From contig JAFIGY010000002.1 of the NCBI GenBank assembly GCA_017849435.1, positions 558,001 to 622,000 of the forward strand: 64,000 nucleotides of DNA, read 5' to 3'. Position numbers and translations under genes: made by a program. Every line of letters starts with the position of its first letter. Positions within the stretch are counted from its first letter, which is position 1. The notes under the pieces were generated by a model, which saw only the letters and a program-made list of their open reading frames with translations, ran no database searches and was not told the DNA's origin. Below, piece after piece: positions 25,072 to 42,821 of this stretch. This DNA is from Chitinophaga niabensis. Its GTDB lineage: Bacteria; Bacteroidota; Bacteroidia; Chitinophagales; Chitinophagaceae.

Positions 25072-25761
25072 ATGATCAGAACAGTCAATTTGCAGAAGCT
25101 CTTTACTACGGAAGAAGTAGAAACCACCGCACTGAACGGCATCAACATGGATGTGCAGGATGGAGAGTTTGTTGCCATCATGGGACCTTCCGGTTGCGGG
25201 AAGTCCACTCTCCTGAACATCCTTGGCCTGCTGGACAATCCCTCCGATGGCGAATATCATTTCTGGGGGAAGGAGGTGGCCCGTATGAGCGAACGCCAGC
25301 GTGCGCAGCTGCGTAAGGGCGCCATCGGCTTCGTGTTCCAGAGCTTTAACCTCATTGATGAGCTCACTGTATTCGAGAATGTGGAATTGCCGCTGTTGTA
25401 TCTCAAAGTGCCCTCCAGCGAACGTAAGCAAAGGGTAGAAGAAGTGCTCGAGCGCATGAACATCATGCATCGCCGCAATCACTTCCCGCAGCAGCTTTCC
25501 GGCGGTCAGCAGCAAAGGGTAGCCATTGCCCGCGCTGTGGTAGCAAAACCCAAGCTGATCCTGGCGGATGAGCCCACCGGTAACCTGGACTCCACCAATG
25601 GGGAAGAAGTGATGAAACTCCTGCAGGAGCTCAACGATGCCGGCACCACCCTGATCATGGTAACGCACTCCCCTTACGATGCCGGTTTTGCGCATCGCAT
25701 TGTGAACCTGTTTGACGGTAAGGTGGTAACGGAAAACATCAAAGAACAATTTCACGTATAA
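25072..25761 (+). CDS. ABC transporter ATPase, LolD/MacB-type (ATPase 1)
   Basis: 229 residues. Walker [11 protein letters not shown]-loop V-F-Q-S-F-N-L-I, signature [14 protein letters not shown], Walker [11 protein letters not shown]-loop N-L-D-S, and H-loop V-T-H-S. All are canonical, so it should be a fully active ATPase for type VII (mechanotransmission) exporters. It is followed after 12 bp by permease 1. The ATG at 25072 is preferred to an upstream in-frame ATG at 25003, which overlaps the fusion protein gene. Confidence 0.94.
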
Positions 25762-25773: not shown

Positions 25774-28137
25774 ATGTTCCGGAGTATCAGGATTGCCTGG
25801 AGAGCCCTAAAGCAGCAGAAGCTATATGCCGTCATTAACATTGGCGGGCTGGCCATCGGGCTGGCGGTAGCTACCCTGCTGCTGATGTGGCGGCAGGAAG
25901 AGTTGAGCTACGACGGATTTCATCCGGGGAAGGAACATATCTATGAAGTGCACAGCACGTTTGAATCCGGCGGGAGCATGCAATACTGGGGCACCACCCA
26001 AAGCGCCGTTGCCGCACATGCCCTGCGGTCTGTGCCCGGTGTATTGAATGCCGTGCGGGTGGCCAATAATTTTGATTTTTCCCGTTTCGCATATGGAGAC
26101 AAGGTTTTCTATGAAAAGAAGATGGCTTATGCGGACTCCTCGATGTTCAGCGTATTCAACTTCCCGCTGCTGAAAGGGGATAAGAAACGGCCTTTCAACG
26201 ACAACAATTCCATCGTTATTTCCGCATCCATTGCAAAAAAATATTTCGGGAATGAAGATCCTGTGGGTAAAGCGATCACTGTAGACAAAGAAAACCAGTT
26301 CGTGGTTTCCGGCGTGATGGCGGATATACCGGAGAACTCCAGCATCCGCTACGATATTTTCTTTCCCTTTGACAGGCTGGTAAAAGGGTATGGGAATAAC
26401 CGGTACTGGGCTTCCCGTGATAACGACTGGGGAAACTTTAATGTACGCACTTATCTGCAATTGCGGCCGGATATGGACATCAAAGCCACCGAAGCGAAAC
26501 TGGGCAAACTGTGGGAGGTGAACAGTCCCAATGAGAATACCCCTCACCGGGGATATCTCCTGATGGCATTGAAGGATGTGCACCTGTATGATGTAAACGG
26601 TAGTGAAGGGCTCATCAAAGTGATCCGCATTTTCTTTCTCGTGGCCATCGTCATCCTGCTCATCGCCTGCATCAATTATGTGAACCTTTCTACTGCGAGG
26701 GCCAGTTACCGTGCCGTGGAGATTGGTGTGCGCAAGATCGTGGGGGCTAACCGTATGCAGCTCTTCCGGCAGTTCATGAGTGAATCGCTGCTGGTGTTCT
26801 TTATTGCGGCAGTACTGGCGATTGGATTGATCTACCTGGCGCTTCCCATATACAACAACATCCTCGGTAAATCCATGCACTTGAACCTGCTGGAAGGCCG
26901 GATACTGGGGATCCTTGGTTTTGGAGCGCTGCTGATGCTGCTGGCAGCGGGCTTGTACCCGGCTCTCTTCCTGACATCTTTTTCCCCCCTGAAGTCGTTG
27001 AAGGGCAAGGGGGCTATTTCCAACGGATCCGGGTACTTCCGGAAAGGGCTTGTGATAGCGCAATTTGCTATCTCCGTGGTATTGATCGGCAGTACGCTGG
27101 TGATCGGCCTGCAGTTGCGATATATCAATACCAGGGAGCTTGGTTTCAATAAAGAAAATGTATTCGTTTTCCCTGTCCGCAGTATGCAGGATCATGGGGA
27201 ATCTGTAAAAGAAGAAATAAAACAGATCCCTGGCGTAACAGCCGTTACGTTCGGGAACAGCAAGGTGATCAGGCTGGATAATGCCACCAGTGATACGGAT
27301 TGGGATGGCAAACAGGAGAATGACAACCTGAATGTGAACACATTGGCAGTAGATGCGGATTTTATCCCTTCTATGAAATTGCAGATGAAAGAAGGGAGAG
27401 CCTTCCGGTATGGCAAGGCGGATTCCGCCGCATATATTCTCAATGAGGAAGCTATCAGGCTTACCGGGCTGAAGGATCCGGTGGGGAAACCGTTCAAGCT
27501 GTATGAACGGCCGGGCATTATCATCGGCGTGGTAAAAGATTTCCAGAGCGGGTCCATGCATAGCAAGATCAAACCGCTGGTAATGTTCTACCGGCCTGCG
27601 AACTGGCAGCTATATGTTAAAACAGACGGCAGGAATACGGCGGCTGTGATGGACAAGATCAAAACGATATGGGCAAGATATAACCCGGACTATCCTTTTG
27701 AGCCGGAATTCCTCGATACCGGCTACGCCAGGATGTACGAAAGTGAAACGCGTACCGGTAAACTGTTTATCGCTTTCGCCGGTGTGGCGATCTTTCTCTC
27801 CTGCCTCGGCCTCTTCGGCCTGGCTACTTTCGCGATCTCGCAACGAACCAAAGAGATCGGGATCCGGAAAGTATTGGGCGCTTCTGTCAGTAACATCATC
27901 CGGCTGATCTCGAAAGATTTTCTGAAACTCGTGCTGATCGCCATTCTGCTTGCCACGCCCATTGCCTGGTTTGCCATGCAGAACTGGCTGAACGATTACG
28001 CTTACCGCATTGTGATGCCTGCCTGGGTATTTGCGGCGGCAGGCGGTATCGCCATCCTGATCGCGATCTGCACTGTTAGTTTACAATCTGTCAGAGCCGC
28101 ACTGATCAATCCGGTGCGCTCGCTTAAATCCGAGTAA
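25774..28137 (+). CDS. FtsX/MacB-type ABC permease 1 of 7
   Basis: 787 residues built as two MacB-PCD/FtsX halves, each with one membrane helix, a periplasmic domain of about 230 residues and three more helices. Coupling motifs in both halves: R-A-V-E-I-G-V-R-K-I-V-G-A and R-T-K-E-I-G-I-R-K-V-L-G-A-S. It ends N-P-V-R-S-L-K-S-E. Because both halves are in one chain, a single polypeptide could form a full transporter with two ATPase copies. Substrate unknown. Followed after 11 bp by a small membrane protein gene. Confidence 0.92.
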   Translation: MFRSIRIAWRALKQQKLYAVINIGGLAIGLAVATLLLMWRQEELSYDGFHPGKEHIYEVHSTFESGGSMQYWGTTQSAVAAHALRSVPGVLNAVRVANNFDFSRFAYGDKVFYEKKMAYADSSMFSVFNFPLLKGDKKRPFNDNNSIVISASIAKKYFGNEDPVGKAITVDKENQFVVSGVMADIPENSSIRYDIFFPFDRLVKGYGNNRYWASRDNDWGNFNVRTYLQLRPDMDIKATEAKLGKLWEVNSPNENTPHRGYLLMALKDVHLYDVNGSEGLIKVIRIFFLVAIVILLIACINYVNLSTARASYRAVEIGVRKIVGANRMQLFRQFMSESLLVFFIAAVLAIGLIYLALPIYNNILGKSMHLNLLEGRILGILGFGALLMLLAAGLYPALFLTSFSPLKSLKGKGAISNGSGYFRKGLVIAQFAISVVLIGSTLVIGLQLRYINTRELGFNKENVFVFPVRSMQDHGESVKEEIKQIPGVTAVTFGNSKVIRLDNATSDTDWDGKQENDNLNVNTLAVDADFIPSMKLQMKEGRAFRYGKADSAAYILNEEAIRLTGLKDPVGKPFKLYERPGIIIGVVKDFQSGSMHSKIKPLVMFYRPANWQLYVKTDGRNTAAVMDKIKTIWARYNPDYPFEPEFLDTGYARMYESETRTGKLFIAFAGVAIFLSCLGLFGLATFAISQRTKEIGIRKVLGASVSNIIRLISKDFLKLVLIAILLATPIAWFAMQNWLNDYAYRIVMPAWVFAAAGGIAILIAICTVSLQSVRAALINPVRSLKSE

Positions 28138-28148
28138 AAGAATTGTGT

Positions 28149-28349
28149 ATGGAAAAGTCAATATCCTGTTTTGCGCACAAGTTGCTGGATGCCGGCCTGA
28201 ACGCCGGGCATTCCTCTGGTGTAGGCAGCAATCTTACGGGTGGCGACCTGTTCGAATTGTTGCCTTACATGGTGATCCCAATGCTGGTTGTGCTGATCGG
28301 GGGATTATACCTGATCAATTTTTACAGGAAACGGAGGCTCAGCAAATAA
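28149..28349 (+). CDS. Small single-pass membrane protein inside the permease array
   Basis: 66 residues; I recognise no family. A polar, Gly/Ser-rich N-terminal half (contains C7 and H10, and G-H-S-S-G-V-G-S-N) is followed by one membrane helix at about 37-59 and the basic tail Y-R-K-R-R-L-S-K, which predicts the C-terminus inside the cell. It is the only gene in the array that is not a permease or ATPase, set 11 bp after permease 1 and 13 bp before permease 2. Codon use resembles its neighbours. It could be a small regulatory subunit of one permease. The ATG at 28149 is preferred to a TTG at 28143. Confidence 0.65.
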   Translation: MEKSISCFAHKLLDAGLNAGHSSGVGSNLTGGDLFELLPYMVIPMLVVLIGGLYLINFYRKRRLSK

Positions 28350-28362
28350 ATAAATATTACCT

Positions 28363-30750
28363 ATGCTCCTGAATTACATCAGAACCGCCTGGCGGAACTT
28401 CTGTAAACATACGCTGTACAGCGTCATCAACATCTCCGGTCTGGCTATCGGGCTGGCGGTTTGCATGCTTATAATGCTGTATGTGGCGCATGAGATGAGT
28501 TTCGACCGCTTCCATCAACGCTCCGGGAGGATCTTTGATGTATATGCCAGGATCGCAATGGGAGCGGATACGGTACAACTGCCATTCATGACCTACCAGG
28601 CCGGTCCTTCCGTAAAAGAACACGATGCGCGGGTGGAAGATTTCCTCCGCCTGAGAACATCCAACCGCCCGGCGGTGATCCGGAATGCAGCGCAACCGGC
28701 CATTAAATTATCTGAAAAAAAGTTCCATTTTGCAGACAGCAACTTCTTCCGCTTTTTTACTTTTCCCCTGCTAAAGGGAGATCCAGCGCATGCGCTGGAC
28801 AGACCATTTACGGTAGTACTGTCGAAAAGTGCGGCCGCACGTTATTTCGGGAAGGACGAACCGGTGGGAAAGGTGCTGCGGTATGAAGGAATATATGATT
28901 TCGAAGTGACGGGTGTATCGGAAGATGTTCCTTCCAATTCTACGATCACCTACGATTTTGTGGCATCACTTTCCAGTTTTTTAAAGATGGATGAGAGCCA
29001 GGGGATGCTGAAAACGCCCAATGTGGGGATCGGGGCATTCAAAACGTATTTCCTGTTGAAAGATCCGCGGGATGCAGATGCCGTTAGCCGCACCATGCAG
29101 CAGTTGTCAGCGCAGGGAAAAGACAAGAGCAGCGAACGATATGTTTTTACAGGCATAAAAAATATGCATCTTTCTGCCAACTTCGGCGATTTCTCCAACC
29201 TCCGGTATTTGAAAATATTTCCGTTGGTAGCCGGCCTGATATTGTTACTGGCGCTGATCAACTATATGAGCCTTGCCACCGCAAGAGCTACATTACGGGC
29301 TAAGGAAGTGGGCGTGCGCAAAACGCTCGGTGCGGGAAGGGCGGGACTGGCCAGACAATTCTATGTTGAATCCGGACTGTATGCCGTGCTGGCATTTGTA
29401 CTGGGCGTATTGATCTTCCTGCTCGTTAAACCGGTCTTTTATCAGCAGCTATCATTGCATATCGATACTTCATTTTTGCTCAGCCCTGTTATGCTGGGTA
29501 TCGGAGCGGGTTTGTTGATGATCACCATCTTCATCGCCGGCAGTTACCCGGCACTCGTATTGTCGTCTTTCAAACCCGTTTCCACGCTGGCCGGCAAGCT
29601 CAGCCGACGGTCAGGAGGGGCTTCCATTAGAAAAGTATTTACCGTATTGCAGTTCAGTATTTCCATTGCATTGATCGTTTGCGGCCTGGTGATTGACCGG
29701 CAGCTGGATTTTTTCCGGCATACGGATACGGGCGTGAACAGAACCAATATTATCATGGTGCCTTTTGCGGCGGCAGCCGGAGATCATTACAATGCTTTCC
29801 GTAACGACGTCAGCGCCATCGCCGGTGTCCGGCAGACAGCCATGGCGAGTTTCCCCATGTATGGCGGGTATAATTGCTTCTTCACCGAGAATGCCGAAAC
29901 AAAAGAACAGGTAATGCTGCCGGTGTATCATGTAGACAGTGCATTTATTCCTATGCTGGGATTACAATGGAAACAGGCGCCTGCATATGCAGAGCTGCTC
30001 ACACAGGGGAACAAGGTTGCTGTTAACGAAACCACTATTCAAAAACTCGGCCTGCCTGCAAATCCCATTGGAAGTTTCCTTCATCTGGGGAATGACCAAT
30101 ACGAAGTTGTGGGTGTACTGAAGGATTTTTCTTACGCATCGCTCCATCGCAAAGTTGATGCACTCAGTCTGTTTGTTAGTAAAGACACCGCCTCCACCTG
30201 GCGTTCGGCAGGCGGTTGTCTTTTTGTGAAAACCACTGCAGGTGCGAATATGCCCACTTTGCTGGCGGCTATCCGGAAGTCGTTTGAGAAATATGACGAT
30301 AACAACCCATTCAAATATCAGTTTATGGACGATGCCTATGATGCGATGTACAAGGCGGAAGACAGGCTGGCCAGGATATTCAGCATATTCACGGGGCTGA
30401 CGGTATTGATCGCCTGCCTGGGGCTCTTTGGTCTTGCCGCTTTTATGGCGGAGCAGCGCACAAAGGAGATAGGCGTGCGCAAGGTGCTGGGGGCTTCTGT
30501 AGGGAGCATTGTGGGATTGCTTGGGAAAGATTTCATCAAACTGGTATTGATAGCCATCCTGCTGGCAACGCCGGTGGCCTGGTATCTTATGCATGGCTGG
30601 TTGCAGGATTTTGCCTACCGCATTCACATGCAATGGTGGATGTTTGCAGTTTCCGCAGCGGCTGCGCTGTTGCTCGCCTGGATCACCGTAGGCATCCAAT
30701 CTGTAAAGGCCGCGTTGACGAACCCGATAAAAGCATTAAGGACAGAATAA
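28363..30750 (+). CDS. FtsX/MacB-type ABC permease 2 of 7
   Basis: 795 residues with the same two-half architecture as permease 1. Coupling motifs: R-A-K-E-V-G-V-R-K-T-L-G-A-G and R-T-K-E-I-G-V-R-K-V-L-G-A-S. It opens M-L-L-N-Y-I-R-T-A-W-R-N-F and ends N-P-I-K-A-L-R-T-E. The periplasmic domains differ strongly from the other copies, whereas the membrane and coupling parts are close. First gene after the small membrane protein; 10 bp before permease 3. Confidence 0.92.
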   Translation: MLLNYIRTAWRNFCKHTLYSVINISGLAIGLAVCMLIMLYVAHEMSFDRFHQRSGRIFDVYARIAMGADTVQLPFMTYQAGPSVKEHDARVEDFLRLRTSNRPAVIRNAAQPAIKLSEKKFHFADSNFFRFFTFPLLKGDPAHALDRPFTVVLSKSAAARYFGKDEPVGKVLRYEGIYDFEVTGVSEDVPSNSTITYDFVASLSSFLKMDESQGMLKTPNVGIGAFKTYFLLKDPRDADAVSRTMQQLSAQGKDKSSERYVFTGIKNMHLSANFGDFSNLRYLKIFPLVAGLILLLALINYMSLATARATLRAKEVGVRKTLGAGRAGLARQFYVESGLYAVLAFVLGVLIFLLVKPVFYQQLSLHIDTSFLLSPVMLGIGAGLLMITIFIAGSYPALVLSSFKPVSTLAGKLSRRSGGASIRKVFTVLQFSISIALIVCGLVIDRQLDFFRHTDTGVNRTNIIMVPFAAAAGDHYNAFRNDVSAIAGVRQTAMASFPMYGGYNCFFTENAETKEQVMLPVYHVDSAFIPMLGLQWKQAPAYAELLTQGNKVAVNETTIQKLGLPANPIGSFLHLGNDQYEVVGVLKDFSYASLHRKVDALSLFVSKDTASTWRSAGGCLFVKTTAGANMPTLLAAIRKSFEKYDDNNPFKYQFMDDAYDAMYKAEDRLARIFSIFTGLTVLIACLGLFGLAAFMAEQRTKEIGVRKVLGASVGSIVGLLGKDFIKLVLIAILLATPVAWYLMHGWLQDFAYRIHMQWWMFAVSAAAALLLAWITVGIQSVKAALTNPIKALRTE

Positions 30751-30760
30751 ATCTCTGCTT

Positions 30761-33169
30761 ATGATCAGGAATTACATCAAAGTGGCCATACGGCACTTAC
30801 TGCGCAACAAAGGCATCACCGCCATCAATGTTGCGGGACTCGCCATTGGCATGGCCTGCTGCATCCTGATCGTGCTGTTCATCAAGGATGAACTGAGTTT
30901 TAATTTATTTCATAAGGATGTTGCCAACATTTATCGGCTGAACACAGTGAGCCATCAAAGGGACGGACGCATCGAATATGGCACTATCACCCAGTTCGGC
31001 GCGGCTCCCAACCTGAAGCTGGAATCCGCGCGGCTCAAGGATGCTGTACGCATTCACTACCAGAATGAAATGTCGGTCAGCACCGGAGCGGAAAAGTTCA
31101 GGCAGGAAAACATCGTATATGGAGATGCGGGTTTGTTCCAGATGTTCAGTTTTCCTTTGCTGGCCGGAAACCCTGCCACAGTATTGAAAGAACCTTACAC
31201 TGCCGTGCTCACGGAAACCACGGCCAGAAAATATTTCGGGAAGGGAAACCCAATAGGCAAAACGATCCGGATACAGGATGAGTATGACTGCCTCGTTACT
31301 GGTGTGGCAAAAGATATTCCGGCCAATACAGATATCGGGTTTGACATGGTGTTGTCCTACACCACCTTCACCCGGAACGCCCTGAAAGCAGGCTCGAAAC
31401 CCGAAGAGAACTGGTTTGGCTTCGGTTCGAATGAAACCTTTGTACAGCTGCCTGCGGGTGTTACTCCTGCCATGATGCGGGGAGAATTAGATGCTTTTGC
31501 AAAGAAACATGTGGTCTCCATCGCCAAACAGTTTGGGGTGGATTTCGGATATGTGTTGCAGCCACTGGCTAACATACACCTCTATCCGGAAGGTGACCAG
31601 GCGCCATCCAATGGTTACTCCAAATTATACATCTACGGTGTGATCGGGTTGTTCATTATCCTGATCGCCTGTATCAATTTTATGAACCTCGTTACGGCAA
31701 GGGGGCAGGAAAGAGCGATGGAAGTAGGATTGCGGAAAGTGATGGGCGCTGCGCGGAAAGCCCTCATCACCCAGTTCCTCATTGAATCCGTGATCGTTTC
31801 CATCACCGCGTTCCTGCTGGCCATTTTACTGGCGCAATGTCTCCTCGCCGGATTCAACTATGTGACCAGTAAGCACATCGAGCTATTCATCCTGACGAAT
31901 ACACTGCTTTTCGCCGCGTTGTTCCTGCTGTCAATTGTAGTGGGCCTGCTGGCCGGCAGTTACCCGGCCTTATATCTTTCGGGCTTCCTGCCTGTCCGCA
32001 TCCTGAAAGGGGGCGCCGGTACCGCTTCCGGCAAATCCCTTTTCCGCAAGGTACTGGTGGTGTCTCAGTTCACGATCGCCATTGGGCTGATCGTTGCCAC
32101 GATCGTGATCTATTCCCAGTTGCGGTATATGCAGCAGCAGGATCTGGGGTACAACCGCAAGGGCCTTGTGAACCTTTCTCTCAGAAGCGCCCGCATGAGC
32201 GATGCGAGGGATGTGATGAAGACGGAGGTATTACAGTTGCCGTTCGTGAAGAGCGCCAGTTATACCAGTACTCCCTTCGGTGGAGGGGGTGGCATCAACG
32301 TGAACCCGGTGGGAAATGAAGGCGTGAAGCTCGAAGATAATTTTGCGGCCCTGTGCATATCCACCGATTTTTCCTACCTGACCAACGCAGGGGTGAAGAT
32401 GTTGCAGGGGCGCGATTTTGACCCCCGTTTTCCTTCGGATAGCATTGATGCTTTCGTGATCAATGAAGTGGCCGCAAAAAAATTCGGTGCAGGCATTACT
32501 ATCGGGTCCCGCATCGTATGGAACGGCAGTGACGAGCCCCGGAAAGGGAAAGTGATCGGCATTGTGAAGGATTTTAATATTCAGTCCCTGCGCCAACCGA
32601 TCATGCCGATGGTGGCGATGATGAATAAACGTGCCGGCGTATTATCCATACGACTGGCGGATGGAGATACACAGGCCCAGCTGGCACAGCTGGAAAAGGT
32701 ATGGAACAAAGTGCTTCCGGCATTTCCGTTCAACTATCGTTTCGTGGAAGGTGCTGTTGCCAGAGAGTATGACCAGGAACAGCGTTCCGGCGGGTTGTTC
32801 GGCGCTTACGCCGCTTTGGCCATTATCATCGCCTGTATGGGATTATTCGGACTGGCTATGCTGATCGCGCGTCAGCGCACGAAAGAGATCGGCATCCGTA
32901 AAGTGCTCGGCGCTTCCGTAGCCAATATCACCGTGCTGCTGTCCCGCGACTTCCTGTTGCTTGTGTTCATCGCCATCTTTATTGCCGCGCCCGTTGCCTG
33001 GTATGGGATGAACCAATGGCTGCAGAACTTTGCTTTTCATATCAACGTTCCCTGGTGGGCTTTTGCGGTGGCGGGGCTTAGTGCGCTGACCATCGCTTTG
33101 GGCACCATCAGCTTTCAATCCATCAGGGCAGCATTATTAAACCCGGTGCGCTCGTTGCGTTCGGAATAA
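30761..33169 (+). CDS. FtsX/MacB-type ABC permease 3 of 7
   Basis: 802 residues, two MacB-PCD/FtsX halves. Coupling motifs: R-A-M-E-V-G-L-R-K-V-M-G-A-A and R-T-K-E-I-G-I-R-K-V-L-G-A-S. It ends N-P-V-R-S-L-R-S-E. The second periplasmic domain carries a glycine run (P-F-G-G-G-G-G-I-N) near residue 507 not seen in the other six, possibly a flexible loop. It is 10 bp downstream of permease 2 and 11 bp upstream of permease 4. Confidence 0.92.
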   Translation: MIRNYIKVAIRHLLRNKGITAINVAGLAIGMACCILIVLFIKDELSFNLFHKDVANIYRLNTVSHQRDGRIEYGTITQFGAAPNLKLESARLKDAVRIHYQNEMSVSTGAEKFRQENIVYGDAGLFQMFSFPLLAGNPATVLKEPYTAVLTETTARKYFGKGNPIGKTIRIQDEYDCLVTGVAKDIPANTDIGFDMVLSYTTFTRNALKAGSKPEENWFGFGSNETFVQLPAGVTPAMMRGELDAFAKKHVVSIAKQFGVDFGYVLQPLANIHLYPEGDQAPSNGYSKLYIYGVIGLFIILIACINFMNLVTARGQERAMEVGLRKVMGAARKALITQFLIESVIVSITAFLLAILLAQCLLAGFNYVTSKHIELFILTNTLLFAALFLLSIVVGLLAGSYPALYLSGFLPVRILKGGAGTASGKSLFRKVLVVSQFTIAIGLIVATIVIYSQLRYMQQQDLGYNRKGLVNLSLRSARMSDARDVMKTEVLQLPFVKSASYTSTPFGGGGGINVNPVGNEGVKLEDNFAALCISTDFSYLTNAGVKMLQGRDFDPRFPSDSIDAFVINEVAAKKFGAGITIGSRIVWNGSDEPRKGKVIGIVKDFNIQSLRQPIMPMVAMMNKRAGVLSIRLADGDTQAQLAQLEKVWNKVLPAFPFNYRFVEGAVAREYDQEQRSGGLFGAYAALAIIIACMGLFGLAMLIARQRTKEIGIRKVLGASVANITVLLSRDFLLLVFIAIFIAAPVAWYGMNQWLQNFAFHINVPWWAFAVAGLSALTIALGTISFQSIRAALLNPVRSLRSE

Positions 33170-33180
33170 AATTGTACGAG

Positions 33181-35622
33181 ATGTTCAGGAACTACCTCAA
33201 AATAGCATGGAGGAACCTTTGGCGTAACAAAGGGTATACGTTCATCAATGTAGGCGGACTGATGACCGGTCTCGCCTGCTGCCTGCTCATTGCCCTCTAT
33301 GTGTTCGATGAACTGAGCTATGAAAGATGGAACCCTGATTCGGACAGGATTTACCGTATAAACTCGGATATCCGTTACGGCGCAAGCGATTTTAATATGG
33401 CCGTTACCTCAGATCCTATGGGACCTGCGCTGGCCAAAGATTATCCGCAGGTAGAAAGTTATGTGCGGTTAAGAAGTGTTGGTAACTGGATATTGACGAA
33501 AGGGACGGAAAGTTATGTAGAAGAAAAAGTGTTGTTTGCCGATTCTTCACTCTTCGATGTTTTCCCCTTTAAAATACTGGCCGGCAGCGCAAAACAGGCA
33601 TTGGCAGTGAATTGTATGGTCATGGACGAAACGATGGCGCGCAAGTATTTCGGTTCGGTGGATGCGGCCGTCGGTCAAACGCTCCTCGTGGATAAGTCCG
33701 CTTCTTACCGGATCACGGCAGTAATTGCCGATATTCCCTCCAATACGCATTTCCGGCCGCAGATATTCCTTTCCATGGCTAATCAGAATGGCAGCAGGGA
33801 GGGTAGTTGGGTATCGCACAATTATACCACATACCTGAAATTGAGGAAAGGGACAGATATGGGGCAGTTCAACAGGAATTTCCGGGACATCAACTCCCGG
33901 TATGTAGGTCCGTATTTACAGAAAATATTGGGAATGGATATTGCCGGGTTTGAAAAACAGGGCAATTTCCTTCGTTATTCCCTGATGCCTATCCGGGATA
34001 TTCACCTGCGTTCCAACCGGGGCGGAGAGCTGGATGCCAATAGCAACATTCAGTATGCGTACATATTTTCCGCCATTGCTTTTTTCATTCTCCTGATCGC
34101 CTGCATCAATTTTATGAACCTGGCCACAGCACAAAGCACCGGCCGGGCGCGGGAAGTGGGTATCCGCAAAGTGCTTGGCGGAGAACGAAGCTCCCTCATC
34201 GCGCGATTCCTGTCAGAATCCACCGTTACGGTTGTACTGGCGCTGATACTGGCGGTGTTGGCCGTAATACTGGTGTTGCCAGCATTCAACAGTTTGTCCG
34301 GAAAATCGCTCAGCCTGTCTAATTTACTCACCTGGCGCTTTCTGGTGGTGATGGCAGCTATCCCTCTCATGGTGGGATTATTGGCGGGAAGCTATCCTGC
34401 TTTCTTCCTCTCTGCTTTCCAGCCGATCGCGGTGCTGAAAGGAACACTCCGCAGGCAGATGGGAGGCGCCCGCCTGCGCAGCATATTGGTGGTGGCGCAA
34501 TTCACCGTGACGATCATATTGCTGACCGGCACTGTAGTGATCTATCGGCAGTTGTATTTCATCCAGCATAAGCAACTCGGTTTCAATAAAGAGCAGGTAT
34601 TGATCATCCAGAATACTTATCTGCTCACCACCCGGCAGGCAGAAACTTTCCGGAAAGAGCTGGAACACCTGCCTGGCGCAGAATCCGCCACTGTGGCTGC
34701 TTACCTGCCCACCAATACAGACAGGAGCGATAATCCCTTCTTCCCCGATGCTGCGCAACAGGGGAAAGGAGTGTCTATGCAAAACTGGCAGGTAGATGAG
34801 GCCTATCTGAAAACCATGAGAATGGAAATGGTGAGCGGGCGGTTCTTTTCGCCGGAGTTTCCGACAGACAGCAATGCCGTTGTGCTCAATGAAGCAGCCG
34901 TAAAGGCGTTCGGGTTCAAAGAGCCGGTTGTGGGCCGGGATGTTTATTACTTCACGGGCGATGCGGGCAAAACCACGCGCAGGATGCCGGTGATCGGTGT
35001 GGTGAAGGATTTTCATTTTTCGTCCATGCACAGCCCCATTGGACCTTTATGTTTTTTGCTGCAGAAAACAAGGAATAATGCAGGCGCTAATATAGCCGTG
35101 CGTACGACAGCAACGGTGGATAAACAGGCTTTTGTGAAAGCAGTGGAAAAACAATGGAAGGCCTTTTCACCCGGCCAGCAGTTCTCCTACAGTTTCATGG
35201 ACAAGGATTTTGAAGGGATGTATCAGGCCGAGCAGAAAGTGGGCAAGATTGCGTTGCTGTTTGCAGCATTGGCGATCATCATCGCCTACCTCGGTTTATT
35301 CGGACTGGTGGCTTATGTAGTGGAGCAACGCACGAAAGAGATCGGCATCCGCAAAGTACTGGGCGCTTCTGTGGCAAACGTGGTGAGCCTGTTGAGCAAA
35401 GATTTCCTCCGGCTGGTATTAATCGCCATCCTGCTGGCTACGCCGCTGGCATGGTATCTCATGCAGCAATGGCTGAAGGATTATGCCTACCGGATCAACC
35501 TCGAATGGTGGATGTTTGTGTTGGCCGGTGCGGTAGCCACAGGAGTAGCGGTGCTTACCATCAGCTTCCAGTCCGTAAAGGCGGCATTGTTGAACCCCGT
35601 CAAATCATTAAAAACAGAATAA
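33181..35622 (+). CDS. FtsX/MacB-type ABC permease 4 of 7
   Basis: 813 residues, the longest of the seven. Coupling motifs: R-A-R-E-V-G-I-R-K-V-L-G-G-E and R-T-K-E-I-G-I-R-K-V-L-G-A-S. It ends N-P-V-K-S-L-K-T-E. In-frame TTG at 33172 is ignored in favour of the ATG at 33181, which restores the common opening M-F-R-N-Y-L-K-I-A-W-R-N. Between the second-half helices the usual I-I-A-C-L-G-L-F reads I-I-A-Y-L-G-L-F, a Cys-to-Tyr change. 7 bp before permease 5. Confidence 0.92.
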   Translation: MFRNYLKIAWRNLWRNKGYTFINVGGLMTGLACCLLIALYVFDELSYERWNPDSDRIYRINSDIRYGASDFNMAVTSDPMGPALAKDYPQVESYVRLRSVGNWILTKGTESYVEEKVLFADSSLFDVFPFKILAGSAKQALAVNCMVMDETMARKYFGSVDAAVGQTLLVDKSASYRITAVIADIPSNTHFRPQIFLSMANQNGSREGSWVSHNYTTYLKLRKGTDMGQFNRNFRDINSRYVGPYLQKILGMDIAGFEKQGNFLRYSLMPIRDIHLRSNRGGELDANSNIQYAYIFSAIAFFILLIACINFMNLATAQSTGRAREVGIRKVLGGERSSLIARFLSESTVTVVLALILAVLAVILVLPAFNSLSGKSLSLSNLLTWRFLVVMAAIPLMVGLLAGSYPAFFLSAFQPIAVLKGTLRRQMGGARLRSILVVAQFTVTIILLTGTVVIYRQLYFIQHKQLGFNKEQVLIIQNTYLLTTRQAETFRKELEHLPGAESATVAAYLPTNTDRSDNPFFPDAAQQGKGVSMQNWQVDEAYLKTMRMEMVSGRFFSPEFPTDSNAVVLNEAAVKAFGFKEPVVGRDVYYFTGDAGKTTRRMPVIGVVKDFHFSSMHSPIGPLCFLLQKTRNNAGANIAVRTTATVDKQAFVKAVEKQWKAFSPGQQFSYSFMDKDFEGMYQAEQKVGKIALLFAALAIIIAYLGLFGLVAYVVEQRTKEIGIRKVLGASVANVVSLLSKDFLRLVLIAILLATPLAWYLMQQWLKDYAYRINLEWWMFVLAGAVATGVAVLTISFQSVKAALLNPVKSLKTE

Positions 35623-35629
35623 TCCGCAT

Positions 35630-37990
35630 ATGATCCGAAATTACATCAAGATCGCCTGGAGGAACCTTTGGAATAACAAAGTGTTCGGGATCATCAACAT
35701 TTCCGGGCTCACATTTGCACTTACCTGTTGTATGTTCATTCTGCTGTGGGTCGCGAATGAGTGGAACGTCAACCGTTTTCATGAAAAGCTGCCGAACATC
35801 TACCAGGTATATGAAAACCAGTATTATTCGAATAATTTCATACTAACGGTATCGGCTACACCGGGCCCACTGGCGGATCAGTTGAAAGTAGAGATCCCCG
35901 GCATAAAAAAGGCCGCACAGGTAGGCTGGCAGACGGAGAAACTGATGAGCACCGGGGACAAGGGCTATAAATTCAAAGGCCTGTATGCCAACAACGATAT
36001 TTTCCAGTTGTTCACCTTCCCGTTTATTGAAGGAGATCCGAACAAGGCACTGCTGGGCCCGAATGATATTGTGTTGACGGAAAAGGCTGCCCATACGCTG
36101 TTTGGCGATGGGAAAGCGATGGGGAATATGGTGCGGCTGGAAGGCAGGGAAGATTATATGGTAGCCGGTGTGATGAAAGATCTTCCCCGGAATTCCACCT
36201 ATAAATTTGACTGGCTGCTGCCCTTTGAACGACTGACACAGGAGAATCCCTGGCTGAAAGAATGGGGCAACAACGCTCCACGCACCTTTGTGCTGGTGGA
36301 CCCGCAGGCGGATATGAATAAAGTGAATGCCAAAGTGAAAGGCATCATACAGCGGAATAAGAAAGAATCCAATACCGATGTATTCCTCTATCCTTATAAA
36401 GACACCTATCTGTTTGGCCATTTTCAGAATGGCAAAGCCGCCGGTGGCCGCATCGAATACGTACGTCTTTTCATTATCATCGCTGTTTTCGTGCTGTTGA
36501 TCGCCTGTATCAATTTCATGAACCTTTCCACTGCCCGCGCTATTCAGCGCAGCAAGGAAGTAGGCGTTCGTAAAAGCATCGGTGCGGGTAAGGGATCCCT
36601 TGTTTCGCAGTTCCTCGGCGAATCCTTTATCATGGTGCTGATCGCTTCTGTCTTCTCGTTATTGCTGGTGTGGCTCCTGCTGCCTTCTTTCGAGAATATG
36701 GTGAACATTACGATCACCGTGCCGCTTTTCACCTGGTATAACATGCTGGCGTTGCTGTCACTGGCTGTTTTCACCGGTTTCATGGCAGGCAGCTATCCCG
36801 CGTTCTATTTATCATCATTGAATCCCGTTGCCACGCTGAAAGGCGGTATGTTGCGACTGCGCTCCAGCGCTATCTGGCTGCGGAAAGGGCTTGTGGTTTT
36901 CCAGTTCGTAATCTCCACTGTATTGATCGTAGGAGCCATCCTGGTGTACCAGCAGATCAGCTTCATCAAGAACCGTAACCTGGGATTGAATAAAGATCAG
37001 GTGGTATGGCTCCGGAATGAAGGATCGATCAGTAAGGATATTCAGCCTTTCCGCAGCACATTGGCGGGAATGCCTGGCATTGTGGCCGTGTCGGATGCAG
37101 ATCAGCTGCCGATAGCGATAGGGAATAACTTCTCCGGGGTGGACTGGCCGGGGAAAAATCCCAAGGATGATATTCTCTTTGACAATCTGCATTCCGGGTA
37201 CGACCTTCAAAAGGTGATGCAACTGGAGATGATAGAAGGGCGTACGTTCTCCAGGGATTTTCCTTCAGACTCCGATGGTGTGGTGATCAATGAAACTGCA
37301 GCAAAAGTGATGAGCCTGAAAAGTCCGTATGTAGGGCAGATACTGACCATTAACAATAAAAAGAATCCCATCATCGGTGTTACGAAGGATTTCGCCAGCA
37401 ACCATCTGCAGACTAAAGTAGGACCGATGGTGATTCGCTACCGCAACACGGATAATGGCTACATCCTTATACGAGTGAAGCCTGATGAAATGGAAACCGG
37501 CATTGCCAGCATCGGAAAGGCTTTCAAGCAATTCAACCCGGAATATCCGTTTGAAGCACATTTCCTGGATACGGACTTCGCCGAAATGTACCGCAGTGAA
37601 CAGGTGATCGGCCGCTTATCCGCCGCCTTTACCGTACTCGCCATCATCATCGCCTGCCTTGGCCTTTTCGGGCTGGCTACTTTCACGGCACAACAGCGTA
37701 CCAAGGAAATAGGGATCCGCAAGGTGTTGGGAGCGAGCGTTATGCAGATACTGACTTTGCTCAGCAAGGAGTTCCTTCGTCTCGTGCTCGTTGCTATTGC
37801 CATTGCATTGCCACTGGCGGCATATTTCATGAATGGCTGGCTGAACAAGTTCGCGTATCATGTGGAAGTGCAATGGTGGATATATTTTGCCACCGGTCTG
37901 TTGGCTCTTATACTGGCGATGTTGACAGTCAGCTATCAATCCGTGAGAACTGCCCGCATGAACCCGATCAAATCTTTGAGGACAGAATAA
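35630..37990 (+). CDS. FtsX/MacB-type ABC permease 5 of 7
   Basis: 786 residues. Coupling motifs: R-S-K-E-V-G-V-R-K-S-I-G-A-G and R-T-K-E-I-G-I-R-K-V-L-G-A-S. It ends N-P-I-K-S-L-R-T-E. The first periplasmic domain is rich in Asn, Tyr and Lys (W-N-V-N-R-F-H-E, N-Q-Y-Y-S-N-N), unlike the other copies. Tightly packed: 7 bp after permease 4 and 13 bp before permease 6. Confidence 0.92.
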   Translation: MIRNYIKIAWRNLWNNKVFGIINISGLTFALTCCMFILLWVANEWNVNRFHEKLPNIYQVYENQYYSNNFILTVSATPGPLADQLKVEIPGIKKAAQVGWQTEKLMSTGDKGYKFKGLYANNDIFQLFTFPFIEGDPNKALLGPNDIVLTEKAAHTLFGDGKAMGNMVRLEGREDYMVAGVMKDLPRNSTYKFDWLLPFERLTQENPWLKEWGNNAPRTFVLVDPQADMNKVNAKVKGIIQRNKKESNTDVFLYPYKDTYLFGHFQNGKAAGGRIEYVRLFIIIAVFVLLIACINFMNLSTARAIQRSKEVGVRKSIGAGKGSLVSQFLGESFIMVLIASVFSLLLVWLLLPSFENMVNITITVPLFTWYNMLALLSLAVFTGFMAGSYPAFYLSSLNPVATLKGGMLRLRSSAIWLRKGLVVFQFVISTVLIVGAILVYQQISFIKNRNLGLNKDQVVWLRNEGSISKDIQPFRSTLAGMPGIVAVSDADQLPIAIGNNFSGVDWPGKNPKDDILFDNLHSGYDLQKVMQLEMIEGRTFSRDFPSDSDGVVINETAAKVMSLKSPYVGQILTINNKKNPIIGVTKDFASNHLQTKVGPMVIRYRNTDNGYILIRVKPDEMETGIASIGKAFKQFNPEYPFEAHFLDTDFAEMYRSEQVIGRLSAAFTVLAIIIACLGLFGLATFTAQQRTKEIGIRKVLGASVMQILTLLSKEFLRLVLVAIAIALPLAAYFMNGWLNKFAYHVEVQWWIYFATGLLALILAMLTVSYQSVRTARMNPIKSLRTE

Positions 37991-38003
37991 AAAAGAGGAT
38001 GCC

Positions 38004-40400
38004 ATGCTAAAGAACTATTTCAAGATCGCATTCCGGAACCTGTGGAAAAACAGGACCATCTCAACGATCAATGTACTGGGGCTCAGTGTGGGGATCAGTG
38101 CAGCGCTTGTGATATGGATGATCGTGTATTATGATATTTCGTTCGATAAATTCCATCCCAACCGGGATCGTATTTACCGCGCTGTTTCCGATCTCAACTT
38201 CGGCAGTACGGTGATCAACACCTCCGGGGTGCCTATGCCACTGGCGGATGCCATGCGTCATGAAGTAGCGGGGGTGCAGGCACTGGCCCATATTTTTGAT
38301 CACGATATGGATGTAAAAGCGGAAGGACACGAGCAAAAGTTCAGGCATCAGAAAAACATCCTCTTTGCAGATGATCAGTATTTTGTGGTGTATCCCTATA
38401 AATGGCTGTACGGATCACCTGCAGCGCTCACAAAAGCTTACCAGACCGTATTGACGGAATCCCGTGCGGAACAATATTTCCCGGGCATGAAGCCGGCTGA
38501 TGTAGTTGGCCGTACGCTGATGTACAATGATTCCATACAGGTGACGGTTGCCGGCATCGTGGAGGCATTCAAAGAAAGATCGGACCTTCAGGCCCAGGAG
38601 TTTGTTTCCTTCTCCACCATTCCGGCCGTGGCCGACCTGAAAGAAGTCACCGCCTGGGGGCGCTGGAACAGTACCAACTCTTCCTGTAACCTGCATATGC
38701 TGCTCAAGCCGGGCGTTTCCCCGGATCAGATAGAGCGGCAATTATTGAATATCCGGAAAAAATATCTCGATAAAGACAACAAGAATCTCTATCACCTGCA
38801 GCCCCTGAACGATTTCCATTTCAACAGCAAATTCGATCTGTTCGATCAACGGCAGGCGAGCTGGAGCACGATATACGGACTTAGTACGCTGGTGATTTTC
38901 CTCCTGCTGCTGGGTTGCATCAACTTCATCAACATACAAACTGCACAGGCGGGAGAACGCGCAAGAGAGATCGGGATACGAAAAGCCATGGGAAGCAGTC
39001 GTGGTAAACTCATCTGGCAGTTCCTGGGCGAAAGTCTCGTGCTGACCTTCTTTGCGGCGATCCTTTCCTTACTGATGGTACCACTGATCCTGCGGTTGTT
39101 CGACCATTTCATTCCCGATGGTGTAACCTTGCAGCTGCTGAAAGAATGGCAGGTATTCCTTTTCATTCCTGCGCTGATCATCATAGTAAGTGTGCTTTCC
39201 GGTCTTTATCCCGCTTTTGTGCTCGCCCGTTTCCAGCCGGTTAAAGTGTTGCGGAACAACCTGCATGGTGTAAAAGGAAAGGCCCGTCTCCGCCAGGTGC
39301 TGACAGTATCGCAGTTTGCGGTGGCGCTGGTATTGATTATGGCTACAGTGATCGTCAGCCGGCAAACGCAGTATGCGTACAGAAAGAATCTCGGCTTTAG
39401 TATTGATTCACGGCTTTACGTTATGTCGCCTCCGGGAGTTAAGGACCTGGCGCCTCTGAAGAGCAGCTGGATGAATGTACCGGAGATAGAGCACTTGTCC
39501 CTCTCTTACAGGACCCCCTCCAGCAACGGTACCGTTTCTTCCCATTTCGGTCTCGAAGGCGAAGATCCCAATTCAAATGATCTTACAGAAGTGAAATACA
39601 TTGATACCGCCTATCTTCCCCTATACAACCTTCATTTACTGGCCGGCCGCAACATTCTGCCCTCGGACACCGCCCGGGAGCTGATCATCAACGAGGCATT
39701 CGTTCACAAGGCAGGATTCAAAACACCTGCAGCGGCTATTGGCAGGACGTTGAGATATAATGATGTGAAAATGCCGATAGTAGGAGTGGTGGCAGATTTT
39801 CATTCCAAATCCCTGCGGGAAACTATCAAACCGATCGTACTCACGAGCAGTCCGGTCGGCAAACGCGGACTGCATGTGGCGTTTAAGAAAAATGTTGACG
39901 TGCCGCATGCGCTGGATAAAATGAAAACTTCCTGGGAAAAGCTCTTCCCGAATGATCCGTTCGATTACAAATTCGTGGATAAGACCGTTGCCGGCTTCTA
40001 TGAGAAAGAGGCGCAACTGATCAAATTATTGTCCTGGGCCACCGGTGTCGCTGTTTTCATCAGCTGCCTCGGCCTGTTGGGACTGGCCATCTACGCCACC
40101 CGTCAGCGCACCCGGGAGATAGGGATCCGGAAAGTGCTCGGCGCGAGCCTGATGAGCATCATGGGACTTTTTTCGAAAGATATTATAAAACTGGTGATCA
40201 TTGCTATCTGCATCGCTACCCCTGTTGTCTGGATCGTGATGCACAACTGGCTGAATGATTTCGCTTACCGCATCAGCATGCCTGTATGGGTGTTCCCGGT
40301 ATGCGGACTGCTGGCGATTTTGCTGGCCGTATGTACGGTGAGTGCGCAATCTCTGAAAGCCGCGATGGTCAATCCCGTGAAATCATTGAAGTCGGAATAA
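38004..40400 (+). CDS. FtsX/MacB-type ABC permease 6 of 7
   Basis: 798 residues. Coupling motifs: R-A-R-E-I-G-I-R-K-A-M-G-S-S and R-T-R-E-I-G-I-R-K-V-L-G-A-S; the second has Arg where the others have Lys. It ends N-P-V-K-S-L-K-S-E. The membrane segment before the first coupling motif reads L-L-L-G-C-I-N-F-I-N-I-Q-T-A, departing from the common I-A-C-I-N-F-M-N-L. An A-G-A-rich spacer (A-G-E-R-A-R-E) precedes the motif. 12 bp before permease 7. Confidence 0.92.
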   Translation: MLKNYFKIAFRNLWKNRTISTINVLGLSVGISAALVIWMIVYYDISFDKFHPNRDRIYRAVSDLNFGSTVINTSGVPMPLADAMRHEVAGVQALAHIFDHDMDVKAEGHEQKFRHQKNILFADDQYFVVYPYKWLYGSPAALTKAYQTVLTESRAEQYFPGMKPADVVGRTLMYNDSIQVTVAGIVEAFKERSDLQAQEFVSFSTIPAVADLKEVTAWGRWNSTNSSCNLHMLLKPGVSPDQIERQLLNIRKKYLDKDNKNLYHLQPLNDFHFNSKFDLFDQRQASWSTIYGLSTLVIFLLLLGCINFINIQTAQAGERAREIGIRKAMGSSRGKLIWQFLGESLVLTFFAAILSLLMVPLILRLFDHFIPDGVTLQLLKEWQVFLFIPALIIIVSVLSGLYPAFVLARFQPVKVLRNNLHGVKGKARLRQVLTVSQFAVALVLIMATVIVSRQTQYAYRKNLGFSIDSRLYVMSPPGVKDLAPLKSSWMNVPEIEHLSLSYRTPSSNGTVSSHFGLEGEDPNSNDLTEVKYIDTAYLPLYNLHLLAGRNILPSDTARELIINEAFVHKAGFKTPAAAIGRTLRYNDVKMPIVGVVADFHSKSLRETIKPIVLTSSPVGKRGLHVAFKKNVDVPHALDKMKTSWEKLFPNDPFDYKFVDKTVAGFYEKEAQLIKLLSWATGVAVFISCLGLLGLAIYATRQRTREIGIRKVLGASLMSIMGLFSKDIIKLVIIAICIATPVVWIVMHNWLNDFAYRISMPVWVFPVCGLLAILLAVCTVSAQSLKAAMVNPVKSLKSE

Positions 40401-40412
40401 AATTTTTGCAGC

Positions 40413-42821
40413 ATGTTCAGGAACTACATCAAAATAGCATGGCGGAATATCTGGAAGTCCCGGAAACTCTCCGTTATCAACATCACAGGTCTGGCTATCG
40501 CCATTGCCGTATCGCTGTTGCTTTGCCTGACTGTATACTGGGAGAAGAGTTACGACGGGTTTCACAAGAACGGGAAAGATATTTACCAGGTTTACCTGGA
40601 TGAATACCAGCCACAGAAAACGCGTACCCGTTCCAACCTGCCGCTGCCCACAGGTCCTGCCATACAGGCGGAGATCCCGGGGGTGAAGGCGATGACCCGG
40701 TTGCGCACAGGCGGTGCGGCGATGCGGGTAAATGATATCACGCAGGATGCCAGCGTTCGTTTCGTAGATAGCGCTTTCCTCCAAATGTTCACATTCCCCG
40801 CGATCAACGGAATGCCAGTATTGGGGCTGAACAATGTGATCCTCACGCGGAAAACGGCGCAGAAGTTTTTTAAGGAAGAAGATCCGGTGGGGAAAACGAT
40901 CCACATGAAGGACGGAGAAATCTGGAAGCCCTTTACCATCACCGCCGTACTGGAAGATGTGCCCGGCAATTCCAGCCTGCGTTTCGACCTGCTGGCCAGA
41001 ACAGAAGCGCAACCGCGGTATGAGCAGATCCGGGACGACTGGAACAGCTCCAGCATACAAACTTTTGTGCAATTAACGCCCGGTACGGCTGTAGAGGATG
41101 TGGAGAAGCGGGGAAAAGCTTTTTTGGAAAAACATTTTGACGGGGATGTAAAGCAGTTGAAGGTAGAGGGGGCGAAACCGGATAAATTCGGCGGCGTGAT
41201 GCATCTTGGATGCATTCCCATGAAAGAAGTGCATTTCAGCGAGATCAGCTCGCTGGGAAAAGTAAAGCACTCCATGTTATACCTGATGTTGTTTGTGGCC
41301 GGGTTCCTGCTGTTCATTGCCAGTATCAATTTCGTGAACCTTACAATGGCAAAGGCCTTCACGCGTGCGAGAGAAGTGGGCATGCGCAAAGTGCTGGGGG
41401 CGGCTAAATCGCAACTGACACTGCAGCTATGTGGAGAGGCATTTATATTATTCCTCTTTGCTTTGATACTGGGGCTTACACTCGCTTATTTCATCCTGCC
41501 GCAATACAATGCGATGCTCAGCTACAAGCTGAATTTCGCCCTGATGGGGAAACCTGAAGTGATCATCGGCACGTTGCTGGCCTTTTTGCTGATATCCCTG
41601 CTGGCCGGTGGATACCCGGCATTATTGCTGGCGCGCTCCCGAACGTTGCAGATATTGAAAGGGAAGGTCAGCACGGGGAAGCGTAACTATCTCCGTAATT
41701 CCCTCATCGTAGTGCAATTCACTTTTTCCTGCCTGCTCATTGGCTGCACGCTGGTAGCCTGGCAGCAAATGAACTACCTGCGCAGCAAACCGCTCGGGTA
41801 TAATACACACGAAGTGATCAGCATACCGGTTGGCACGGAAGTGAACGGACACCTGCTCCTGGAGCGTATGCGCACACAACTGGCGCAGCAGCCGGATATC
41901 GTGAGCGTTTCCGGCGCCGGCAACAATTTTGGATTGGGGAAAGACAGGAGCAGCTCTACCTCCATGATGATCTTCAAGCACGATCAGAAGCAGATGTCCA
42001 CCCACTGGCTCGGTATCGAATTCGGCTACCTGAAAACGATGGACCTGCAACTGATCGCAGGGCGTGACCTGGATAAAACGCTGGCGGGCGATTCCAACGC
42101 CATTGTCATCAATGAAGAGATGGCGCGGCAGCTGGCAGTGAAAGATATCATAGGGTACAGGATGCGGTTTGATGAAGACGGACCACAGTACCAGGTAGTA
42201 GGGGTGGTGCGAAATTTCCACTTTAAATCCCTCCACCGCCCGATCGAACCGGTAACGATGTATCTCAACCCGCAGGCCGGACCGCCGGATTACCTCTTTG
42301 TGAGAACAGCGCCGGGAGACCTCCGTGCTGCGATGCAGGCCGTGGAGAAGGCGTGGAAGAGCGCCGCGCCGGGGGCGCCGTTCCTCGGTTCCTTTGTGGA
42401 TGAGAACACGGAAAGATTATATGAAAACGATAGAAGTCTTTCACAGATATTTGTAAGCGGAGCCGCGCTCACCATAATTATCTCCTGTATGGGACTTTTT
42501 GCCATTGCCATGCTCGCCATCGGGCAGCGCACCAAAGAGATCGGCATCCGGAAAGTACTGGGTGCAAGCGTGGTGAACATCACCGCACTGATCTCCCGCG
42601 ATTTCCTGCAGCTCGTGGGGCTGGCCATCCTGATCGCTTCCCCGCTTGCCTGGTGGATGATGCATCGCTGGTTGCAGGATTTTGCGTATCATGTGCACAT
42701 CAGCTGGTGGGTATTTGCCATCGCGGGCCTGCTGGCCATTATGGTGGCGGCCTGCACGATCAGTTTTCAAAGCGTCCGCGCAGCCCTGATGAACCCGGTA
42801 AAATCTTTACGAACAGAATAA
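40413..42821 (+). CDS. FtsX/MacB-type ABC permease 7 of 7
   Basis: 802 residues. Coupling motifs: R-A-R-E-V-G-M-R-K-V-L-G-A-A and R-T-K-E-I-G-I-R-K-V-L-G-A-S. It ends N-P-V-K-S-L-R-T-E. Its first half is the most divergent: I-A-S-I-N-F-V-N-L-T-M replaces the usual I-A-C-I-N-F-M-N-L-A-T, and the motif after the coupling helix is L-C-G-E-A rather than F-x-x-E-S. It is directly followed (16 bp) by ATPase 2, its most likely partner by position. Confidence 0.92.
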   Translation: MFRNYIKIAWRNIWKSRKLSVINITGLAIAIAVSLLLCLTVYWEKSYDGFHKNGKDIYQVYLDEYQPQKTRTRSNLPLPTGPAIQAEIPGVKAMTRLRTGGAAMRVNDITQDASVRFVDSAFLQMFTFPAINGMPVLGLNNVILTRKTAQKFFKEEDPVGKTIHMKDGEIWKPFTITAVLEDVPGNSSLRFDLLARTEAQPRYEQIRDDWNSSSIQTFVQLTPGTAVEDVEKRGKAFLEKHFDGDVKQLKVEGAKPDKFGGVMHLGCIPMKEVHFSEISSLGKVKHSMLYLMLFVAGFLLFIASINFVNLTMAKAFTRAREVGMRKVLGAAKSQLTLQLCGEAFILFLFALILGLTLAYFILPQYNAMLSYKLNFALMGKPEVIIGTLLAFLLISLLAGGYPALLLARSRTLQILKGKVSTGKRNYLRNSLIVVQFTFSCLLIGCTLVAWQQMNYLRSKPLGYNTHEVISIPVGTEVNGHLLLERMRTQLAQQPDIVSVSGAGNNFGLGKDRSSSTSMMIFKHDQKQMSTHWLGIEFGYLKTMDLQLIAGRDLDKTLAGDSNAIVINEEMARQLAVKDIIGYRMRFDEDGPQYQVVGVVRNFHFKSLHRPIEPVTMYLNPQAGPPDYLFVRTAPGDLRAAMQAVEKAWKSAAPGAPFLGSFVDENTERLYENDRSLSQIFVSGAALTIIISCMGLFAIAMLAIGQRTKEIGIRKVLGASVVNITALISRDFLQLVGLAILIASPLAWWMMHRWLQDFAYHVHISWWVFAIAGLLAIMVAACTISFQSVRAALMNPVKSLRTE

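Follow-up and report, generated by a model that had tools for sequence, protein, structure and literature searches.

How can a bacterium power seven large permeases encoded side by side when only two ATPase genes accompany them? The question is raised by a 64,000-nucleotide stretch of the Chitinophaga niabensis genome (5.0 Mb, 23 contigs; assembly GCA_017849435.1, contig JAFIGY010000002.1, positions 558,001 to 622,000; hereafter the window), in which seven double permeases of the FtsX/MacB type are encoded in tandem. The original prediction, made from the letters of the window, held that these permeases share two flanking ATPases and could be swapped on them. The array is real, conserved and larger than was first seen, and we consider it probable that it represents a hub-and-spoke Type VII (MacB/FtsX-fold) ATP-binding cassette (ABC) system, in which one pair of ATPases, ATP1 and ATP2, serves many double permeases. 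What was observed is gene order, gene intactness, selection, co-occurrence, predicted fold, coupling-helix motifs and a promoter. The pair would power the seven permeases of the operon and probably 13 more scattered through the genome.

The permease genes P1 (25774–28137, 787 amino acids (aa)), P2 (28363–30750, 795 aa), P3 (30761–33169, 802 aa), P4 (33181–35622, 813 aa), P5 (35630–37990, 786 aa), P6 (38004–40400, 798 aa) and P7 (40413–42821, 802 aa) are seven intact frames on the + strand, 786–816 aa in length, or 786–813 aa with P4 taken from the ATG at 33181. With that start, the gaps from P1 to P7 measure 225, 10, 11, 7, 13 and 12 bp, the first holding a 66-aa frame, as originally described. 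One ATPase gene flanks each side, again as described: ATP1 (25072–25761, + strand), with canonical LSGGQQQRV and GNLDS motifs, and ATP2 (42838–43500, + strand), with the altered versions LSGGQQQLV and GNLHS. Both were assigned from profile and Pfam matches and conserved motifs.

MacB_PCD (PF12704) and FtsX (PF02687) each match twice per chain in P1, P2 and P6, the three permeases run against Pfam, and eight hydrophobic segments are present in all seven; the claim that each chain contains two permease halves is borne out. The AlphaFold model of P4 has eight long helices, with coupling helices at residues 323–331 and 718–726, and its nearest solved fold is that of E. coli YbbP. Domain hits and model together give the Type VII (MacB-fold) arrangement, a unit of four transmembrane (TM) segments with a large periplasmic domain between TM1 and TM2. 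The ATPase genes are separate from the permeases, in contrast to the fused ATPase–permease of MacB. Each chain would form a complete two-half membrane domain, its two coupling helices holding two ATPase subunits, as in YbbP/YbbA.

A count of seven is right for the locus and understates the total. The genome encodes 20 full double permeases, seven in the array and 13 standing alone on other contigs (orphans), and both coupling helices are recognisable by sequence motif in all 20. Conservation was assessed on 52 of 65 array permeases, those lying whole within one stretch and longer than 700 aa. The genome has one ATP1 and one ATP2 at the cut-offs of the survey below. A profile of these ATPases, which scores 471 bits with ATP1 and 457 bits with ATP2, gave only two weak matches (54 and 65 bits) when run on 20 kb of sequence around each of the 13 orphans, one of which lies at a contig end. 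A private ATPase for each permease, named beforehand as the finding that would speak against sharing, was sought, not found and ruled out on these scores: the 13 orphans have no ATP1- or ATP2-like gene nearby. The same profile gave 184, 139 and 227 bits with the three other LolD-class ATPases (LolD-like, FtsE-like and MacB/LolD-like, respectively) that were classified from the general ABC listing of the genome.

We scored the presence of permease, ATP1 and ATP2 in 294 genomes of the family at E-value cut-offs of 1e-100, 1e-95 and 1e-85, respectively. Per genome, 3 candidates were scored in the permease search, 10 and 9 in the ATPase searches and 9 for a control ATPase, and weaker ATPase copies may have been missed; the permease search records presence, while permease numbers come from 24 chosen genomes. 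Permeases were detected in 140 genomes, ATP1 in 139 and ATP2 in 132, with all three in 130 and none in 153. The permease state equals the ATP1 state in 291 of the 294, and only one of the 154 genomes without a permease (G088) has ATP1. Inside the 16 genera that contain both states, 62 of 63 genomes have either both permease and ATP1 or neither, so relatedness alone does not explain the co-occurrence. The control, a third ATPase of the C2:592968 type, does not track permeases: 135 of the 140 genomes with a permease have it, as do 140 of the 154 without. One ATP2 was scored in each of the 132 genomes, and one ATP1 in each of the 139 except three (G104, G184 and G211, each with two ATP1 and one ATP2 at the cut-off). 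Linkage is not needed, since the two ATPases co-occur even where they lie on different contigs (G046) or 92 kb apart (G084). Two individual genomes may be added. G104 carries an ATP1–permeases–ATP2 array with activator plus a second locus of kinase, activator, membrane fusion protein (MFP), ATP1 and permeases, and G317 has one permease over the cut-off, yet has ATP2 and further permease frames.

The layout of the array recurs in the genus. Arrays were mapped in 13 relatives, chosen from the best-scoring of 24 same-genus genomes, and in all 14 arrays including that of the window we found kinase, sigma54 activator, MFP1, ATP1, permeases, ATP2, TolC and MFP2. The number of permeases per array is 3, 4, 5, 6 or 7, the window having the most, and in two arrays (G007 and G010) one permease precedes ATP1. 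One of six permeases in the G002 array is truncated to 436 aa (G002:C1:2663102-2664412), the remaining array being intact; in Chitinophaga pinensis YS-16 (L081) the array permeases are split into many short frames, perhaps through sequencing errors in the assembly. P1, P3, P5, P6 and P7 have orthologues in unchanged order in G003, at 56–71% identity. ATP1 is 91–98% identical to its counterparts in 11 genus relatives and ATP2 79–92% in 12, the nearest named ATP2 genes being those of Chitinophaga pinensis (85%) and C. japonensis (84%). The ratio dN/dS is 0–0.040 for ATPase orthologue pairs, 0.037–0.081 for permeases in close orthologue pairs of relatives, and 0.093–0.206, with dS saturated, for six of the seven window permeases (P2 excluded) against G003 or G012. 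The array is not a chance arrangement, because the layout recurs in 13 same-genus relatives, G003 keeps the order and dN/dS is low; the MFP1-to-MFP2 operon is an old unit.

Some relatives carry far longer sets. Seven long loci were chosen for a large ATP1–ATP2 distance and full permeases counted within the stretch read; frames here, at the loci of G104, G317 and the ATP1-only genomes, and at the named loci below run from stop to stop, and their lengths may include extra residues. The counts are 24 (G253), 21 (G320), 19 (G124), 16 (G298) and 15 each (G201 and G180), and the seventh locus (G084) has 10 in two blocks. These sets are tandem but interrupted, by about 15 kb without permeases in G253 and by shorter gaps in G124, G298 and G201; the stretch read in G320 ends about 2.5 kb short of ATP1, and in G180 ATP2 is far off. 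Whole-genome numbers reach at least 42 in G253, G320 and G124, among the 24 chosen genomes. A survey of permeases per ATPase had been proposed as a check, and it yields up to at least 42 per ATP1/ATP2 pair in relatives.

The relationship between array and orphan permeases was examined in a tree of 100 sequences, comprising 65 array permeases (one truncated), the 13 orphans of this genome, three orphans of relatives, and 19 of 24 G253 frames filtered by length and motif; a quick tree method was used, with SH-aLRT as the measure of support. The seven window permeases occupy seven separate places, and recent tandem duplication was ruled out on this ground. The orphans C13:37163, C5:222387, C13:166771 and C14:239737 are sister to G253 array members (SH-aLRT 100, 100, 100 and 99, respectively), so a permease that sits beside the ATPases in one genome stands alone in another. 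Four further orphans cluster with the array member G024_P2 (SH-aLRT 100), and the 13 together require at least 10 changes of label between array and orphan. The tree indicates that arrays and orphans exchange members.

What, then, does a pair of ATPases do on each permease? In all 14 arrays ATP1 has LSGGQQQRV and GNLDS and ATP2 has LSGGQQQLV and GNLHS. Across 95 ATPases from a survey of named loci, the position that follows LSGGxxQ co-varies with the D-loop residue: 27 have R with D, 66 a residue other than R with H, Q or N, none is mixed and two are incomplete. The changes in ATP2 suggest an asymmetric partner, and we lean slightly towards the view that each permease carries a heterodimer of one ATP1 and one ATP2. 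Of what was originally proposed, ATPases common to alternative permeases are strongly backed by layout, purifying selection and co-occurrence; the notion that two ATPases amount to interchangeable motors lacks support in that form, with one of each per genome and coupled changes in ATP2 that point to a heterodimer.

The two ATPases might instead form two hubs, ATP1 homodimers driving one permease set and ATP2 homodimers another, which we regard as unlikely. ATP2 retains Walker A, the Walker B glutamate and the signature LSGGQ, as such a division would have it, and three genomes (G100, G196 and G295; L161–L163) have a minimal kinase–activator–MFP–ATP1–single-permease locus with TolC. With ATP1 kept alone there, pairing with ATP2 is unnecessary and ATP1 probably works as a homodimer; these three genomes suggest a simple 1:1 system and a link of ATP2 with multiplied permeases. 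However, ATP2 occurs without ATP1 in only two of 132 genomes (G309, 67% complete, and G277, 98% complete), no two-class split of the coupling helices is visible by eye, and the joint alteration of signature and D-loop in ATP2 suits an asymmetric pair.

Several observations weigh against the ATP1/ATP2 pair as the motor of every permease. G100, G196 and G295, each with one permease over the cut-off, have ATP1 without ATP2, and they belong to eight of 140 permease genomes that lack ATP2, with G069, G168, G176, G181 and G186; two of the 140 (G277 and G309) lack ATP1. Four of these ten exceptions (G168, G181, G186 and G309) are 60–81% complete, G309 being at 67%. G069 (95% complete) and G176 (91%) have 10 and 17 permeases, respectively, without ATP2, which weakens a strict need for it, and G277 (98%) has five permeases without ATP1. 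In ATP1-only genomes, too, one coupling helix differs from the other, so their difference is no evidence for two ATPases, and we dropped this asymmetry as proof of a heterodimer. At E 1e-100 the permease was absent from all 15 genomes of the order's other families that were searched. Lastly, the genome holds a third LolD/MacB-type ATPase (C2:592968), a possible partner of some orphans, and three ABC proteins that look unrelated (C13:30499, C13:158569 and C18:166762) are encoded less than 10 kb from an orphan.

These last points bear on a further alternative, by which ATP1/ATP2 serve only part of the seven, the remainder and the orphans depending on other ATPases, such as C2:592968, or acting as ATP-free scaffolds or sensors. 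We find this improbable. The C2:592968 ATPase exists and matches the ATP1/ATP2 profile at 227 bits, and the orphans are distant from ATP1 and ATP2; but an ATPase of its type is present in 140 of the 154 permease-less genomes, against one of 154 for ATP1, and the orphans interleave with array members in the tree and retain both coupling helices.

Slightly less credible again is a set of dedicated exporters of self-made peptides like DarBCD, one permease per peptide. The permeases and ATPases have the DarB and DarD models (NF038008 and NF038007) among their top matches, but all scores fall under the curated cut-offs: 69–154 bits against 700 for the permeases, and 287 (ATP1) and 244 (ATP2) against 375. 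Furthermore, no peptide precursor or maturation gene was seen among ten annotated neighbours, where the single radical-SAM gene is HemN-like. It is very improbable that the permeases are redundant or decaying duplicates of which few work: the truncated G002 member would fit, but the seven intact frames, their seven non-adjacent places in the tree and the dN/dS values given above, for the relatives' close pairs as for the six window members, would not.

A shared ATP1/ATP2 pair may extend beyond Bacteroidota. A search with an ATP2 alignment provided 80 named loci, the most similar of a longer list rather than a random sample, of which 67 have an ATP2-type gene; 15 of the 67 have an ATP1-type gene as well in the stretch examined. 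MFP, ATP1, permease and ATP2 occur in that order in Opitutia (L124), Spartobacteria (L138 and L145), Acidobacteriota (L132) and Zixibacteria (L139); in Gemmatimonadaceae (L137) the permease likewise follows ATP1 and precedes ATP2. Eight of nine permeases from such loci exceed the ADOP cut-off of 622 (890–1044 bits), the Zixibacteria permease scoring 285, and four over-cut-off ADOPs (898–990 bits) lie directly between ATP1- and ATP2-type genes (L132, L137, L138 and L145). Twelve genomes of other phyla, picked for having ATP2, contain from 3 to at least 38 ADOPs (some counts being lower bounds) and one ATP2 each, or two in one case. To our knowledge, the ADOP family has been described as lacking ATPases, with no adjacent ATPase gene. 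These loci suggest that the ATP1/ATP2 pair is the missing motor of the 'orphan' ADOP permeases. For the widest form of the proposal, that one ATP1/ATP2 heterodimer drives all double permeases of a cell, orphans included, and the ADOPs of Acidobacteriota, Verrucomicrobiota and relatives, we see the chances as even. Two Spirosoma loci (L083 and L084) have an ATP2–TolC–MFP cluster with no permease in the 10 kb upstream, and ATP2 is therefore separable from permeases.

The genes around the array point to regulation and to a route out of the cell. A sensor histidine kinase (20785–22119, − strand; Pfam PAS and HATPase_c) and an NtrC-type response regulator, a sigma54 activator or enhancer-binding protein (22124–23470, − strand; Response_reg, Sigma54_activat and HTH_8; an alternative longer start is possible at 23536), adjoin the array in all 14 cases and are divergent to the MFP1-to-MFP2 operon. 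Between them and the operon lies a predicted −24/−12 promoter of sigma54 type, TGGCACATGGATTGG (23753–23767, + strand), recognised by comparison of the pattern TGGCAyN5TTG across relatives. In all 14 arrays this pattern lies directly before the MFP1 start, and a scan of 584 kb on both strands gave 20 matches in total; looser sigma54 pattern scans of the window gave matches no more numerous than in shuffles. Given the 14 of 14, sigma54 control of the operon by the neighbouring activator is likely. A 2025 survey (PMC12316311) reported sigma54 promoters enriched at this permease COG in Bacteroidia, so that such regulation is not new in kind. MFP1 (23793–25040, + strand; HlyD/MacA type, HlyD_3 and HlyD_D23, start placed by conservation) precedes ATP1, and ATP2 is followed by a TolC-type outer membrane efflux protein (43537–45096, + strand; OEP) and MFP2 (45125–46501, + strand; HlyD type, HlyD_D23 and HlyD_3).

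From this arrangement a working cycle may be proposed. The kinase and sigma54 activator, a gene pair seen with its promoter in the sequence, would switch the operon on, and ATP1 and ATP2 would dock as a pair onto any permease. ATP binding would close the pair and shift the periplasmic domains, by mechanotransmission as published for YbbAP. Envelope-active compounds or peptides would be picked up in the periplasm or membrane and expelled through the fusion proteins and TolC, a common exit. The label 'exporter' is inherited from MacB and DarB, and mechanotransmission appears more likely than transport across the inner membrane. A tripartite complex with MFP and TolC is a candidate, its genes being present in 14 of 14 arrays. 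The permeases probably differ in substrate, because their periplasmic domains diverge most.

The small protein between P1 and P2 (28149–28349, + strand; 66 aa, one TM segment) has no Pfam match and is perhaps an accessory subunit. Look-alikes sharing LLPY...P...VLI.GLY were seen by eye in three of eight other long-gap arrays (G021, G003 and G012), between P1 and P2 in G003 as in the window, and after ATP1 in G021 and G012. Elsewhere in the window, long frames overlap on opposite strands at 16817–18433 (+, 538 aa) and 16820–18427 (−, 535 aa); the + frame has no Pfam match.

If one pair does serve the whole set, an export repertoire could be widened by adding permeases only, and genes could enter or leave the array without loss of function. 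Permeases would compete for one motor, and loss of the pair would disable the whole set. With dozens of permeases naturally placed on a single motor, the determinants of coupling and substrate would also become accessible. Orphan double permeases are annotated in 28 and 33 copies in two Dyadobacter species, according to PMC11573002; naming one ATPase pair makes the function of such proteins testable with two deletions.

How does this compare with known systems? In the open-licence literature, searched for tandem FtsX permeases, ADOP function and shared permease ATPases, we found no functional study of such arrays, and within it the earlier remark that a swappable-permease system is functionally undescribed holds. 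Double permeases with separate ATPases are known from YbbAP, DarBCD and ADOP. The ADOP model TIGR03434 is the best NCBIfam match of all seven permeases, at 255–331 bits, below its cut-off of 622.3. The likeness to ADOP extends to the double permeases of about 800 aa, the two PF12704/PF02687 copies, the large paralogous sets and the many members without a nearby ATPase gene. The difference is that the array here is flanked by ATP1 and ATP2, a candidate pair, yet 13 of 20 permeases have no such gene nearby. DarBCD likewise combines a double permease with a separate ATPase, and its models rank second for the permeases and first for both ATPases. The darobactin exporter includes the fusion protein DarC, and its cluster has one permease per ATPase.

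E. coli YbbAP–TesA (PDB 9GE6–9GE8) offers one double permease with two coupling helices and a YbbA:YbbP ratio of 2:1. YbbP, however, has 10 TM segments, two of them a pair that links the halves, and works with a single kind of ATPase, whereas we find eight TM segments, two ATPases, many permeases, and MFP and TolC genes. Membership of ADOP or DarB was rejected for scores under the cut-offs, and of YbbP for eight rather than 10 TM segments. A review (PMC5985334) describes MacB as a homodimer of four-TM chains with fused ATPase and LolCE as a heterodimer of four-TM chains. MacAB–TolC and LolCDE differ from the system proposed here in having one motor per transporter.

Sharing of ATPases has counterparts among importers, such as MsmK, FhuC and MceG. 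Group II ECF importers have an unrelated fold and the other transport direction. As described in PMC7755397, their one motor, often an EcfA/EcfA' heterodimer, is common to exchangeable, competing membrane parts. The ECF common module includes the membrane protein EcfT and swaps S-components, whereas here whole two-half permeases would be swapped. If our reading holds, the ATP1/ATP2 system is the MacB-superfamily counterpart of these importers, like them in logic but unrelated to them. Its parts are of known kinds; within the literature searched, motor sharing at this scale in the MacB superfamily is the new point.

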